Shown here one piece after another: positions 1,552 through 35,916 of a stretch of 57,901 nucleotides of DNA (positions are counted from its first letter, which is position 1; each line of letters begins with the position of its first letter). A program made the position numbers and the translations under genes. The notes beneath the pieces are model-generated. The model did not search any database. It had not been told where the DNA came from and was given only the letters and a program-made list of their open reading frames with translations. This DNA is from Candidatus Desulfofervidus auxilii (lineage in GTDB: Bacteria; Desulfobacterota; Desulfofervidia; Desulfofervidales; Desulfofervidaceae), in the NCBI GenBank assembly GCA_030262725.1, contig JAJSZS010000014.1:1-57901 (forward strand), in the 5' to 3' direction.

Positions 1552-2339
1552 TGGTGGTTAGTTACTCTAGATTAAACAGGTATAGAACTTGTGGTATTTC
1601 TTATTATTTTTACTATATCGTTGGTAAAAAATATCCACCAACTATTGGTATGATTTTAGGCACTGCTTTCCATGATACTTATAAACTAAATTTCAAACAA
1701 AAATTGGCAATCAATGAAGACATGTCTGTTGAGAATCTTCAAAAGATTTTTATAAAAAAATATGATAAGTTAGTTAAAAAAGTCAGATGGTCACCAAGTC
1801 AAATAGGTAAGGAAGAAGAGCTTTTAGAATTTCATAAAAATAAAGGTCTTAAGTTAGTCAAATTGTTTTACCCTATTGCTCAAAAGCTTATTCCTCTCAG
1901 TGCTGAAGATAAATATAGAGTGAAAATACCAAAAGAAAATCTTGAAATTATTATCAAACCTGACCTTATTGTTTATGATGGTATTATTGACTTTAAAACT
2001 AAAACAAGAAAATCTGTCCCTGATTTTAATCAACTTTTACTTTACTCTTTTGCTTATAAAGAACTTTGTAAAAAACCTCCTAAACATTTAACTTTTTATG
2101 ACCTTATTTACACAAAAACTAAAGAATATATTTTAAAACATAGCATTGATGGAAATGTAGATGCACAGCCAGAAATACTGATTCAAGAAGTAAAAGCTAT
2201 ATTAAAAGCGATAGAAAATAAAATCTTTTTTCCTGCACAGCCTAACTCATGGAAATGCAGTGCTGAGTATTGTGAATATTATGATGAGTGCCTTTATGGG
2301 AAAAGAAGACATGAAACCTACCAAAGAATCGAAGAATAA
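1551..2339 (+). CDS. PD-(D/E)XK nuclease of RecB/Cas4 type with probable Fe-S cluster
   Basis: 262 residues. Seen: an N-terminal S-Y-S-R-L-x-x-Y-x-x-C motif with Cys14, His41 in LGTAFH, Asp138 (KPDLIVYDG), then Asp147-Phe-Lys149 in IIDFKTK, and Gln161 in the following helix; these match the RecB-like nuclease motifs in order. Three C-terminal cysteines, Cys236, Cys241 and Cys247, with Cys14 give the 1+3 pattern that holds a 4Fe-4S cluster in Cas4 and AddB. Inferred role: 5' or 3' end resection producing single strands for the RecT-like protein encoded just downstream, a viral Red-type recombination pair. Translation is coupled to the preceding ribbon-helix-helix gene. No CRISPR locus is nearby, so a Cas4 role is unlikely. 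Confidence 0.85.
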   Translation: MVVSYSRLNRYRTCGISYYFYYIVGKKYPPTIGMILGTAFHDTYKLNFKQKLAINEDMSVENLQKIFIKKYDKLVKKVRWSPSQIGKEEELLEFHKNKGLKLVKLFYPIAQKLIPLSAEDKYRVKIPKENLEIIIKPDLIVYDGIIDFKTKTRKSVPDFNQLLLYSFAYKELCKKPPKHLTFYDLIYTKTKEYILKHSIDGNVDAQPEILIQEVKAILKAIENKIFFPAQPNSWKCSAEYCEYYDECLYGKRRHETYQRIEE

Positions 2340-2451
2340 AAAAGAAATTAAAATACCTAGCTTGTTATTTAACCTTTTAACTCCAGAAGAAAAAAGAAAA
2401 ATCTTTTTAAAGAAAGAAATTAAATTAATTAAAATAAAAAAGGAGGAATAG
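2296..2451 (+). CDS. Small basic protein overlapping nuclease end
   Basis: A 51-residue, very Lys-rich reading frame that starts inside the last 44 bases of the nuclease gene; in-frame ATGs at 2260 and 2311 are alternatives. It ends in KKEE just before the RecT-like gene, whose own AAAGGAGG site lies in this frame's last codons. Composition is coding-like (long run without stops in an AT-rich region) but no family is recognised. Nucleic-acid binding is possible from the charge alone. Confidence 0.45.
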   Translation: MGKEDMKPTKESKNKKEIKIPSLLFNLLTPEEKRKIFLKKEIKLIKIKKEE

Positions 2452-2453
2452 TT

Positions 2454-3332
2454 ATGGATTATAAAGAAGTCCTTGAAATTGCAAATATTTTAGTGCAGAG
2501 TGGTCTTTTTCCTAATGCAAAGAATAAAGAAGGTGCATTTGCAATACTTGAGTATGGTAGAGAACTTGGAATCCCACCTGTAGTAGCCTTACAGAATATT
2601 TCAATTGTGAAAGGAAGGCTTTGTTTATCAGCACAATTAATGTTAACGTTAGCAATTAGAAATAATGTGATCTATCAAATTGAAAAAAATGATGACCATG
2701 AATGTATTATCAAATTCACAAGAATAATTAGAGATAAAGCCGTAAGTTATATAAGCAGATTTACAATAGAGGAGGCTAAAAAAGCACAATTGATAAGACA
2801 GGATAGTAATTGGTTGAAATATCCAAAGGATATGCTTTTTCACAGGTGTGTCAGTAGAGGGTTAAGAAGAGTAGCTCCTGATATTATCATGGGTGCTTTA
2901 TTACCTGAAGAGGCAAGTGAAATCAAAGAAATAGAAGCAGAAGAAGCAGTAGAAGAAGAAAAAATAGAACCTTTAGAAAAAGCACCAGAAGCTTTAGAAA
3001 CAAAGAAAGGTAAGGTAATTGAAATACCTAAAGAAAAAGAAGAAGAGAAACCTTTAGAAACACCTTTATTATTAGATGGAGTAGCTCAAGAAGAAGAAGT
3101 TGAGGTTATAAAGGAAGAAGAGGAAGAAAAAAAGGAAGAAGAGGAAAAAGAAGTAGGTAAAGAAGAAAATTTATTTGAAAGCTTAAAAAAAGAGATAGAT
3201 GAAATTGATACTATAGATAAACTTGTTGATTGGGTGTCAAATAAAAGGTCTATTATTGATAAAATGAAGCCCAACGAAAGAGACGAAATTAAACGTTATT
3301 ATCAGAATAAATTAATTCAACTTTCTGAATAA
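2454..3332 (+). CDS. RecT-like single-strand annealing protein
   Basis: 292 residues. The first 165 residues follow the RecT family plan: an N-terminal helix ending in GLFPNAKNKEGAFA, the GRELGIPPVVALQ segment, a VKGRLCLSAQLM strand-helix, a central beta region, IEEAKKAQL, a Trp-Leu-Lys-Tyr-Pro patch followed by a conserved HRCVSRGLRR helix, and PDIIMGALLPEE. RecT-type proteins form rings or filaments on single-stranded DNA and anneal complementary strands. The rest is a long Glu/Lys-rich linker and a short folded tail, possibly for partner binding. Start preceded by AAAGGAGG at 2438-2446. It follows the RecB-like nuclease, as expected for an exonuclease-annealase pair. Confidence 0.85.
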   Translation: MDYKEVLEIANILVQSGLFPNAKNKEGAFAILEYGRELGIPPVVALQNISIVKGRLCLSAQLMLTLAIRNNVIYQIEKNDDHECIIKFTRIIRDKAVSYISRFTIEEAKKAQLIRQDSNWLKYPKDMLFHRCVSRGLRRVAPDIIMGALLPEEASEIKEIEAEEAVEEEKIEPLEKAPEALETKKGKVIEIPKEKEEEKPLETPLLLDGVAQEEEVEVIKEEEEEKKEEEEKEVGKEENLFESLKKEIDEIDTIDKLVDWVSNKRSIIDKMKPNERDEIKRYYQNKLIQLSE

Positions 3333-10738: not shown

Positions 10739-11977
10739 ATGCAAGAGACAGAAAGATTATTATTAATTAATGAAGTAATGCGTGTTACAGCCAGAATAAT
10801 GGCAAAAAATGCAATTGGTTCAGCTACTATTGTTTATTCTAAAAATGGGAAGACATATTTACTGACAAATCACCATGTGATTGAAAATAATATTGAATAT
10901 AAGCAGGTATGGGATACTGTGATTAAAAAAGATGTGAAAAAAGATTTTACAAGTCCTGTTGAGGTTCATACTTATAGATTAGATGACACTGGAAGAGTTT
11001 TAGGTTTGCAGTCAGTTTTAGCTCATATTGCGGATTATAATAAAGAACAGGATATTGCTCTTTTAGTTATAGATGACCCAATGGAATATCCAACAGCAAA
11101 ACTCTATCCTAAAGAAATGGCTGATAAAGTGCCTTTAATGGTGCCGCTTGCTTGTTGTGGTGCTGCTTTGGGGCAGAAACCTATTATTACGTTTGGTCAT
11201 TTAAATGGAATACAAATAGAGATAGATAATTATGAGTATTACCTCAGCTCAGCTCCTGCTATATTTGGTAATTGTCTACCCAGTGATACGTTAATATCTA
11301 TGTATGATGGTTCTGTTAAGAAAATATCAGAAATTAAAGAAGGTGATTGTGTTTGGTCTCTTGGTTATTATGGTTTAAAAAAATCTTATGTTAAACGTCT
11401 TATTAATAGTGGTAAAAAAACTATTTTAGAAATGAGAACAAAAACAAAAAAATTAAGAGCGTCTGATAATCATCCTGTTTTATGTCTTGAAAAAGTGTGG
11501 TCAGTGGATAATGAGGCTTCTTATACTCTTATTTGGAGAAAGCTTGGAAGTCTAAAAGAAGGAGATACTGTTATTACTTTAAATTCAAATAATATTAATT
11601 TTGAAAGAATTAGAAAAATAGAAACAGTAAGTGAAGAAGAAACTTATGATATACAGTTAGATAATATTCATAATTTCTTTGCTAATGGAGTTTTGGTCCA
11701 TAATTCTGGCGGTGGTATTTTTACTCCAATTAATAATCACTGGTATTTCTTTGGCATTCCAAGTCGTGTTTCAGTAACTTTTCTAGGATGGGCAGCTAAT
11801 GCTATTACTCATATGAGTTATTTTATGCCTATCAGTCGTATTTATAATTGGCTGGATGAGATTTGTTATCAATTTATTTATGATCCTAATTATACACCAG
11901 AACAGTGTGAAGAGCTAAGAAAGGAAAAGAAAGAAAGAGAATTGGCTATGTTTGTAAGAACAAAAAGTAGAGAGTAA
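10739..11977 (+). CDS. Trypsin/HtrA-like serine protease precursor with embedded intein
   Basis: 412-residue precursor, start preceded by AAAGGAGATG. The host protein is an S1-like protease: LLTNHHVI gives catalytic His46, DIALLVI gives Asp105, and the catalytic serine should lie in a G-N/D-S-G-G motif. That motif is split: Gly177-Asn178, then a 144-residue insertion, then Ser323-Gly-Gly-Gly. The insertion has the blocks of a mini-intein, so splicing would create the 268-residue active protease and the serine that acts as the +1 splicing nucleophile is the protease nucleophile. No signal peptide is visible. Possible roles are virion maturation or cleavage of the structural proteins encoded downstream. 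It could also process host proteins. Confidence 0.9.
   Translation: MQETERLLLINEVMRVTARIMAKNAIGSATIVYSKNGKTYLLTNHHVIENNIEYKQVWDTVIKKDVKKDFTSPVEVHTYRLDDTGRVLGLQSVLAHIADYNKEQDIALLVIDDPMEYPTAKLYPKEMADKVPLMVPLACCGAALGQKPIITFGHLNGIQIEIDNYEYYLSSAPAIFGNCLPSDTLISMYDGSVKKISEIKEGDCVWSLGYYGLKKSYVKRLINSGKKTILEMRTKTKKLRASDNHPVLCLEKVWSVDNEASYTLIWRKLGSLKEGDTVITLNSNNINFERIRKIETVSEEETYDIQLDNIHNFFANGVLVHNSGGGIFTPINNHWYFFGIPSRVSVTFLGWAANAITHMSYFMPISRIYNWLDEICYQFIYDPNYTPEQCEELRKEKKERELAMFVRTKSRE
11273..11704 (+). other. Mini-intein inside the protease
   Basis: 144 residues (precursor 179-322). Block A starts with Cys179 (CLPSDTLISMYDG), block B is ASDNHPVLCLE with the expected His, block F is YDIQLDNIHNFFANG and block G ends in VLVHN followed by Ser. 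The length leaves no room for a homing endonuclease, so it cannot home by itself. All residues needed for splicing (Cys1, block B His, penultimate His, terminal Asn, Ser+1) are present, so it should be active. Confidence 0.93.
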
Positions 11978-11995: not shown

Positions 11996-12634
11996 ATGGA
12001 GAAATTAACAAAATATTTTGATTTCTTTTGTCTATTAGGGGATTCAAAAAGGCATAGATATGATGAAGAATTAAGACAAATTTTTATTCAAAAAAAACTT
12101 TCTAAATATTTTAAAAATGAATATGAAAGAATAGCATTTTTACGACTTGTATTTTCTTCTTGTTTTAAACATTCTTTTATTAACCCTTTTTTGATTGCTT
12201 TATTGGGATTAGCAAAAATTGAAAAACCGACTTTATGTGAGGAGTTTGTTGAAGAAATAAATGAAGAAATTGTTGAGCGACTTGCAAGGTATGATTATAT
12301 GATTAAGGTTAATTATGAGCGTTTATTTAATTATACATACTATGGAGAGGTATGTGCAGATATGATAGGTGAAATTGAAAATAATGGTATAGATTTTGAT
12401 TTTTATAAATTTGGAAATATTTGTTGTGAGATAGTAGAAAAAGTTTATTTTGATAAAAAAACTGGAAAAATTTGTTTAAAAATGGATAGTTTAACACTTC
12501 CAGAAAGATTTGTTGTAGGTTTAATATATCCTAATCTAAATTTTTTAGGTGATATGGTATTTAGGTGTGAGCAAGAATTGGAAAAAGATTTAGAAGATGA
12601 TACTCGGCGTTATTATATTCCTTTGGAAGAATGA
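11996..12634 (+). CDS. Paralog family member with C-terminal extension
   Basis: 212 residues. Starts MEKLTKYFDFFCLLGDS and carries the family hydrophobic motif INPFLIALLGLAK internally at about residues 61-73. Other members end at this point; here an acidic 140-residue domain follows. It is a close duplicate of the gene at 12843-13589, with near-identical first 22 residues and the same motif, but lacks that copy's zinc ribbon. Nothing outside the window family is recognised. The next gene overlaps its stop by four bases. The motif could insert into a membrane, which would make this a two-part protein with a soluble domain on each side. Confidence 0.75.
   Translation: MEKLTKYFDFFCLLGDSKRHRYDEELRQIFIQKKLSKYFKNEYERIAFLRLVFSSCFKHSFINPFLIALLGLAKIEKPTLCEEFVEEINEEIVERLARYDYMIKVNYERLFNYTYYGEVCADMIGEIENNGIDFDFYKFGNICCEIVEKVYFDKKTGKICLKMDSLTLPERFVVGLIYPNLNFLGDMVFRCEQELEKDLEDDTRRYYIPLEE

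Positions 12635-12842: not shown

Positions 12843-12855
<13 letters not shown>
12631..12855 (+). CDS. Small helical hypothetical protein
   Basis: 74 residues between two members of the paralog family, overlapping both (ATGA at 12631; 13 bases at its end). Helical, with PYPESVFPEISLEEY near the middle. No family recognised. Its end encodes KETWRN from the same bases that start the next gene. Confidence 0.6.
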
Positions 12856-15039
<2,184 letters not shown>

Positions 15040-31623: not shown

Positions 31624-32868
31624 CTAAATGTCTTCAGTTGGAATTCTTTTTTGTTTTAAAAAAGCACTAAACTCCATTCCTGCTGAAACACATACAATAT
31701 CTGATAAATAACCAGTGCCATCTTCATTTTTTACTTTAACAGGTGTATGTCTATTTGTATATGTTCCATCTCCTAATTGACCATTATTGTTTCTTCCCCA
31801 TGCATATACGCTTCCATCTGATTTTACTGCAAGAGAATGTGATGAACCTGCTGCTATGTATATAATATTTGTTAAATTTTTTACTCGCACAATTTTATAT
31901 CTATTTGTTGTTGTTCCATCGCCTAATTGACCGTCATTGTTTCTACCGCATGCATATACTGTTCCATCTGATTTTAAAAATAAGGTATGTTCCCATCCAG
32001 GTGCAATTTGTATTACGTCTTTTAAATCTGATACACCATCAACATCTTTTACTTTTGTTGGATAATCTTTAGTAAGGTCAGTTGAATTGATACCAAGTTG
32101 ACCATAGTAATTGGCTCCCCATGCATATACGGTTCCATCTGATTTTATTGCAAATGCTGTATTGCCACTAGCAAAAATATTTGTCACATTATATAAATAT
32201 CCAGAACCTCCAGGTCCAGGTTGGATACGTGGTGTAGTATAATAATTAGCAAAATCTTCAAATTTAAGCCCCCAACGCAAAACAAATCCGTCTTCTGTTA
32301 AGGCAAAAGATGATCTGCCGCCTGCTACAATCTTTATGATATTGCATAAATATCCATTTCCATTTATTCCTTTAACTCTTACAGGTAAATATCTATCTGT
32401 TGTTGTTCCATCGCCTAATTGACCACTAAAGTTCCATCCCCATGCCCATACACAACCATCAAAATCAATTACTAAACTATGGCTACCACTTGTCATAACT
32501 GCTATTTTTTTAATATTGCTTAAATGTCCAGTTCCAGAGGGATTTTTTACATATATAGCAGAACAAGCTTTTTCTGTTGAGCCATTACCAAGTCTTCCAG
32601 CTCCTCCAACTCCCCAAGCCATTACTTTATTATCTTTTGTCAATGCTAATGTATGGTTACTACCACATGATATAAATGTAACATCTGTCACATATCCTAT
32701 TGGGTCTTTAACAACTATTGATGGTAAATTTCTATTGAGAACTTCACTACCTATTCCTAAATTACAGAAACCATTATTATAACCACATGTGTATATTGAA
32801 TTATATAAGTATAACTCACTTTTTGGTATTGATTTTTCTCGTTTTATTGATTTTAATATGAGTCCCAT
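31624..32868 (-). CDS. RCC1-type beta-propeller protein
   Basis: 414 residues with about seven RCC1 repeats of 50-55 residues, each with an H-[ST]-L-[AV]-x(3)-[DS]-G-x-V-x-[AC]-W-G-x-[ND]-x-x-G-Q-L-G-x-G consensus, for example WGRNNNGQLGDGTYTNRHTP. RCC1 repeats fold into a seven-bladed propeller. The N-terminal leader (SIKREKSIPKSELYLY) matches the leader of the gene at 36191 (NLKREKLHPPPEYKI), so both probably attach to the same partner. In a viral context a propeller of this kind is a plausible receptor-binding spike. Confidence 0.88.
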   Translation of the reverse strand: MGLILKSIKREKSIPKSELYLYNSIYTCGYNNGFCNLGIGSEVLNRNLPSIVVKDPIGYVTDVTFISCGSNHTLALTKDNKVMAWGVGGAGRLGNGSTEKACSAIYVKNPSGTGHLSNIKKIAVMTSGSHSLVIDFDGCVWAWGWNFSGQLGDGTTTDRYLPVRVKGINGNGYLCNIIKIVAGGRSSFALTEDGFVLRWGLKFEDFANYYTTPRIQPGPGGSGYLYNVTNIFASGNTAFAIKSDGTVYAWGANYYGQLGINSTDLTKDYPTKVKDVDGVSDLKDVIQIAPGWEHTLFLKSDGTVYACGRNNDGQLGDGTTTNRYKIVRVKNLTNIIYIAAGSSHSLAVKSDGSVYAWGRNNNGQLGDGTYTNRHTPVKVKNEDGTGYLSDIVCVSAGMEFSAFLKQKRIPTEDI

Positions 32869-34746: not shown

Positions 34747-35916
34747 TTAAGTGGTTATCGCTAAAGAATGATGATAGCCTGCGGCAATATCTATTACTGC
34801 TCCTTCAATATCAATTAAAACTGGAGTTTTTCTATTTTGTGTAGTTCCATCACCTAGTTGTCCATAATAATTATGACCACATGCATAAAGAGTGCCATCA
34901 TTTTTTAAAAAGAATGTATGTTCCCATCCTGAGCTAATTTTAGCAACATCGTTTATATTTGGATTTAACTTAGCTTTTGTATAGGTTCCTAGTGTTTCTA
35001 ATCCTAATTCACCATAACCGTTTTTACCCCAGCAATAAACTTCTCCATTTTCTGTTATGGCAAAACTACACGTTCCTCCAACAGCAATGTGTTTTATATT
35101 TGTTAAAGGAGTTCCATCTTCTTTTATAACCTGAACTGGTAATGTTTTATAAGCTTCAGTGTCTCCAGCACCACATTGACCATAAGCATTATAACCCCAT
35201 GCCCAAACAGTTCCATCAGATTTTAAAACTATAGTAGCGTTATAACCTGCTTGCACTGAAATTACATCAGTTATATTACATAAAACTGGAACATGTTCTT
35301 CACCAGCTCCTCCATTTTCTCCTAATTCACCATCATAGTTACGTCCCCATCCAGCTAAAGTATTATCTGCAAGAATTGCCAAGCTATGACCAGCCGTTGA
35401 ACATGCAATAGCTTTAACGTTTTCTAAATAACCACTTCCTCCTATGCCTAATGTTTGAGTGAATTCACTTTTATTTTCTTCTGTGCCATCACCAATTTGC
35501 CCATAAACATTATAACCTGTTCCCCAAACTGTGCCATCAGCTTTTAAAATTAGTGAATGATTGGCGCAAGTTATTTGTAAAATATTTTCTTGTCCACTTA
35601 TTTTCTGTGGTGTTTTATAATAGCCAACACCATTAGCAAAACCTAATTGACCATATTGATTTCGTCCCCACCCCCATAAATAGCCAGCCATAGTATATCT
35701 AGAAATGATGTATTTATTGCTATAACTTATAAGACCTTTTGGAATATGTAATTTATTATAAACAGAAACATCTAATGAAGTTATATTATTAAAATTTTTG
35801 CCATCCCATTGATAAATTTTGTTTTTAATTCCTCCACTAGTCAATAAAATAGAAATGTAGTGTTTTGCAGGTATCAGTTTTTGAAAATGTTTTAAGCTAC
35901 GACTAATTCTTCTCAT
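34747..35916 (-). CDS. RCC1-type propeller with shared N-terminal module
   Basis: 389 residues. Residues 1-76 form a module that is strongly alike to the start of the WD40-type protein at 38125 (LKHxQKLIPxKHY ... IYQWD ... NITSL ... KYIISRYT). From there on it changes to six or seven RCC1 repeats (for example WGWGRNQYGQLGF, CGHNYYGQLGDGTTQNR). The same attachment module carrying two different propeller types is like receptor-binding proteins with exchangeable heads. Nucleotide repeats inside the propeller would allow recombination. Confidence 0.88.
   Translation of the reverse strand: MRRISRSLKHFQKLIPAKHYISILLTSGGIKNKIYQWDGKNFNNITSLDVSVYNKLHIPKGLISYSNKYIISRYTMAGYLWGWGRNQYGQLGFANGVGYYKTPQKISGQENILQITCANHSLILKADGTVWGTGYNVYGQIGDGTEENKSEFTQTLGIGGSGYLENVKAIACSTAGHSLAILADNTLAGWGRNYDGELGENGGAGEEHVPVLCNITDVISVQAGYNATIVLKSDGTVWAWGYNAYGQCGAGDTEAYKTLPVQVIKEDGTPLTNIKHIAVGGTCSFAITENGEVYCWGKNGYGELGLETLGTYTKAKLNPNINDVAKISSGWEHTFFLKNDGTLYACGHNYYGQLGDGTTQNRKTPVLIDIEGAVIDIAAGYHHSLAITT

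Follow-up and report, generated by a model that had tools for sequence, protein, structure and literature searches.

The protease gene and its intein

The window analyzed here, a stretch of 57,901 nucleotides, is a phage contig, identical in extent to contig C14 of a 2.27-Mb assembly, and encodes a primase, an exonuclease, RecT, UvrD, DNA methyltransferases, an endolysin and tail-type proteins. On its forward strand, positions 10,739–11,977 hold an open reading frame, preceded by a good Shine-Dalgarno sequence (AAAGGAG; AAAGGAGATGATAAAATG), whose domain matches and translation indicate a 412-residue precursor composed of a trypsin-like (Trypsin_2/HtrA-like) phage protease and an intein. The N-extein (residues 1–178, positions 10,739–11,272, + strand) ends in IFGN and carries the catalytic His46 (codon 10,874–10,876) and Asp105 (codon 11,051–11,053), both conserved among 108 homologues. 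The mini-intein follows, on the same strand, at positions 11,273–11,704 (Cys179, whose codon starts at 11,273, to Asn322, whose last nucleotide is 11,704), and the 90-residue C-extein (positions 11,705–11,974, + strand) opens at nucleotide 11,705 with the +1 residue, Ser323, the serine of the GNSGG motif. The junctions thus read IFGN178/C179 and HN322/S323GGG, that is FGN-intein-SGGG; each of the two patterns has a single match in the window, and none of 100 shuffled sequences contains either.

In a preliminary description of this DNA, residues 179–322 had been read as a 144-residue mini-intein. This reading agrees with the junction residues, with the Pfam Intein_splicing model (PF14890; 3.8e-14, 53.2 bits versus a cut-off of 35.8), and with the NCBIfam models of the intein C-terminal splicing region (TIGR01443, 3e-6) and of the intein N-terminus (TIGR01445), while the nearest structures by sequence are the PDB mini-inteins 4o1r and 1mi8. 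Block A reads CLPSDTLI, block B LRASDNHPV and blocks F/G EETYDIQLDNIHNFFANGVLVHN, and the segment shows the class 1 hallmarks: Cys179 at position 1, a terminal His321-Asn322 and Ser323 at +1. Together with four allelic inteins described below, these matches confirm, at the level of sequence, residues 179–322 as a class 1 mini-intein. Its 144 residues contain no LAGLIDADG domain, and it is the sole intein in the host assembly. As Asn occurs at both junctions (GN/C...HN/S), the spliced product alone would fit an intein spanning N178–H321 or C179–N322 equally well; the limits were set as C179–N322 on the basis of intein chemistry and of the four homologous alleles.

The trypsin-like nature of the host protein, also proposed in the preliminary description, is borne out once the intein is removed: excision lifts the Trypsin_2 match from 24.5 to 37.3 bits (5.7e-9), above the cut-off of 27.6. 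In the resulting 268-residue protease, the triad His46/Asp105/Ser179 (extein numbering) is found in 107, 108 and 108 of the 108 homologues, respectively, the single missing His being a gap in an aligned sequence whose N-terminus is trimmed or truncated. Over the same 108 homologues, conservation among the 32 Cys/Ser/Thr sites of the spliced protein is highest at the catalytic Ser, and among its pentapeptides at GNSGG. An AlphaFold2 model of the intein-free homologue L227 (pLDDT 93) has an HtrA-like fold, with DegQ, DegS and DegP as top PDB matches (Foldseek E 4.5e-12). Assignment of Ser323 as the catalytic serine of an HtrA-like protease is thus secure by homology. While the phage protease has the fold and the TNxHV, D and GNSGG motifs in common with HtrA, DegQ and DegS (Pfam Trypsin_2), it differs from them in being phage-encoded, in forming a separate sequence family and in having a long C-terminal helix, and, in contrast to these enzymes, no PDZ domain was found in its 268 residues.

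Allelic inteins and empty sites

Searches with the extein as a single sequence returned no relatives in the IMG/VR, phage, plasmid, relatives and genome sets. The first ones, L013 and L056, were obtained by running on IMG/VR a DNA pattern combining intein block G with SGG. A profile built from three spliced proteases (window, L013 and L056) then yielded 168 IMG/VR relatives, of which 80 were kept, and later profile scans enlarged the family and added the intein alleles L374 and L420, leading to an alignment sample of 108 distinct phage homologues. When the block-G pattern was run GTDB-wide, its matches were, by reading, mostly inteins of ribonucleotide reductase, DnaE and RtcB, with no trypsin-like protease among them. 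Profile matches in bacterial genomes of the phylum were partial and at the level expected of HtrA-like proteins; these are not members of the phage family. One protease homologue, on L404 (IMGVR_UViG_3300033149_004619, ~2339–3220), has its frame broken just upstream of the active-site motif.

Five alleles, all on phage contigs, occupy the identical site: those of the window, L013, L056, L374 and L420. The four other inteins are 353–359 residues long and each has an endonuclease region, matched by Pfam LAGLIDADG_3 in L056, L374 and L420. The L013 intein bears an insert of endonuclease length which aligns with the other alleles without a Pfam match, and its second endonuclease motif reads LDSNGY instead of the DG form; judged from these residues, endonuclease decay is visible in this allele. 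The window intein is 41–44% identical to the four others (34–52% identity among all five inteins) and, among all the open reading frames gathered up to that comparison, is most similar to the inteins of L056 and L013. In the TxxH motif of block B, the window has SDNH and the other alleles SANH or SGNH, so that His is kept and Ser stands in five out of five for the Thr found in most inteins. The other 103 of the 108 distinct homologues are intein-free, including the closest one, L227 (65% identical), whose empty site reads FGNSGGGVY without interruption, the exact joined product. Collectively, these inteins are a new allelic family of a known general type. As in other class 1 active-site inteins (phage terminase, TOPRIM, RNA polymerase), Cys1, a His-Asn end and a C/S/T +1 residue are present, insertion is at a conserved site, distribution is scattered and alleles occur with or without an endonuclease (PMC5050341, PMC5784728, PMC3359363, PMC1635734); in contrast to these, the inteins described here reside in a phage protease of the trypsin type, whose catalytic nucleophile doubles as the +1 residue.

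On the extein tree, the five intein bearers are scattered, and the starred branches force five state changes (gains or losses), although this tree alone cannot separate gained from lost alleles. On the intein tree, the L374 and L420 inteins group together (98/99); this grouping is rejected by the exteins (AU p = 0.0001), which place L420 with the window. Grouping of the window with L420 is itself not rejected on the intein tree (AU p 0.18), and transfer of the window's own intein is consequently indicated, not proven. The best explanation for the scattered inteins appears to be homing into empty sites followed by decay: a LAGLIDADG homing lineage would target the most conserved codons of the protease gene, and an imprecise loss of the intein at GNSGG would kill the protease. 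Comparison with the other alleles shows that the window intein has lost its endonuclease and kept its splicing residues; this copy looks like the endonuclease-less remnant of a homing element lodged in an irreplaceable codon. With the endonuclease present, decaying or absent among the five alleles, and with the empty sites, the family sets out the stages of a putative homing cycle at a single phage codon.

Splicing and the double role of the catalytic serine

A route by which the precursor would be processed can be proposed from its conserved residues and from the usual chemistry of class 1 inteins. Cys179 would attack the carbonyl of Asn178 (N–S shift), and Ser323, the later protease nucleophile, would receive the N-extein as an ester. 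Cyclization of Asn322 would release the intein, and an O–N shift would then yield the native ...FGNSGGG... sequence. The preliminary description had identified the +1 nucleophile used for splicing with the catalytic serine of the protease, and this position is indeed Ser in 108 of 108 homologues. As read from the alignments, the coincidence is real and recurrent, being found in five alleles, and one serine hydroxyl would serve in turn two unrelated reactions, protein splicing and then peptide hydrolysis. It follows from this anatomy that the active site would be assembled by splicing. Since the oxyanion-loop residues Gly-Asn would be separated from the Ser, each on its own segment of the precursor, the latter is predicted to be inactive, and there are sound grounds to expect that it should be proteolytically dead. 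In the AlphaFold2 model of the precursor, the junctions fall below pLDDT 50, and no active-site geometry is claimed for it on this account.

The intein is very probably a selfish class 1 element which sits at the catalytic serine of the protease and has to be removed by splicing, and no sign of a regulatory role was seen. Inteins are known to favor conserved positions near active sites (PMC3359363, PMC5784728), and phage inteins in active centers have already been described (PMC5050341). Most homologues are intein-free, while the inteins themselves have a scattered distribution and, for the most part, homing-endonuclease regions; this favors a selfish element lodged where conservation is high. 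Moreover, the residue after an intein has to be C, S or T, and the best conserved of these in the protease is the catalytic Ser, so that the coincidence of the two nucleophiles needs no regulatory purpose.

The temperature- or redox-sensitive switch put forward in the preliminary description did not find such support. In its general form, this reading holds that slow or conditional splicing delays the activation of a protease whose immediate activity would be harmful, which would make the intein the source of a zymogen. It draws on the insertion position, which breaks the active site by construction, on the loss of the endonuclease while the splicing residues are kept, and on precedents for conditional splicing among other inteins, as reviewed in PMC7765530. 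Such a role is nonetheless unlikely: a purely parasitic intein would equally need its splicing residues, the closest homologue L227 and, in all, 103 of the 108 family members do without an intein, and the cysteines do not point to redox control. Cys204 and Cys249 of the window intein are missing from the four other alleles, Cys1 alone being common to all, and on the extein side, Cys139/140 are poorly conserved and at least 38 residues away from the junction, close to which the extein has no conserved Cys. We consider it quite improbable that the His-Asp dyad of the host protein, or a pre-formed N-extein fold, polarizes Ser323 and aids transesterification, so that splicing would take place only after folding of the protease; if true, this would be a fold-checked, intein-made zymogen in phages.

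Two other readings dispute that splicing occurs at all. Asn at –1 is a poor residue for some inteins, and this residue, along with the replacement of the block B Thr by Ser and the mini-intein size without an endonuclease, might point to a dead or partly dead remnant which would not splice and would leave a defective protease encoded. Both the block B Ser and the –1 Asn are, however, common to the four other alleles; Cys1, the block B His, the penultimate His, the Asn and the +1 Ser are all present, and the long open frame, the intact triad and the good Shine-Dalgarno sequence make this reading very improbable. Weak matches to Hint and Vint could likewise evoke a Hint domain, of the bacterial-intein-like (BIL) or another type, that cleaves instead of splicing. 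The probability of this is close to nil, as the top match is Intein_splicing, the +1 Ser is present, the C-extein completes a conserved protease and the sequence expected after joining is found, residue for residue, in homologues with an empty site. A selfish, splicing class 1 intein thus remains the reading that we favor.

Lon and ClpP have folds unrelated to that of trypsin. Inteins in these serine-type proteases are known, namely the Pyrococcus abyssi Lon intein and the Chlamydomonas eugametos ClpP intein (PMC4031507, PMC1635734), the latter ending in Gly-Asn (PMC1635734). If either +1 residue were the catalytic Ser, there would be a precedent, and uniqueness of the coincidence between splicing and catalytic nucleophile is not claimed. 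In the open-access literature searched, no paper was found to describe an intein inserted at the catalytic Ser of a protease of the trypsin type. Protease activity could serve here as a direct read-out of splicing, and the set of alleles provides material for asking whether active-site inteins ever exceed parasitism.

Phage context and further observations

The protease has no conserved gene neighbor across the family and is accordingly an accessory gene. The window and the 70-kb contig of L227 have in common the protease and a phrog_644 protein, with weak methyltransferase and helicase matches. Directly downstream of the protease, two adjacent paralogous genes (11,996–12,634 and 12,843–13,589) start alike at the N-terminus and have no PHROG match. 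An IS605 OrfB/TnpB-like gene is located within the phage contig at 20,288–21,529, and two phage RCC1-repeat proteins, with weaker tail-protein matches, are encoded at 31,624–32,868 and 34,747–35,916.

In L002 (G014) and L003 (G051), the whole ORF encodes a single protein in which Hint/intein-like domains, three or four in number, follow each other in tandem with nothing between them but HNKGGG(G)C linkers, where the +1 residue is Lys, not a nucleophile. With a signal-like N-terminus, a Tim44-like C-terminal domain and PT-HINT matched four times, this protein is a tandem BIL-like array. Finally, in the host assembly (G000), contigs C21, C17, C4 and C8 contain four strong Lon_C matches within long frames (679–813 codons).
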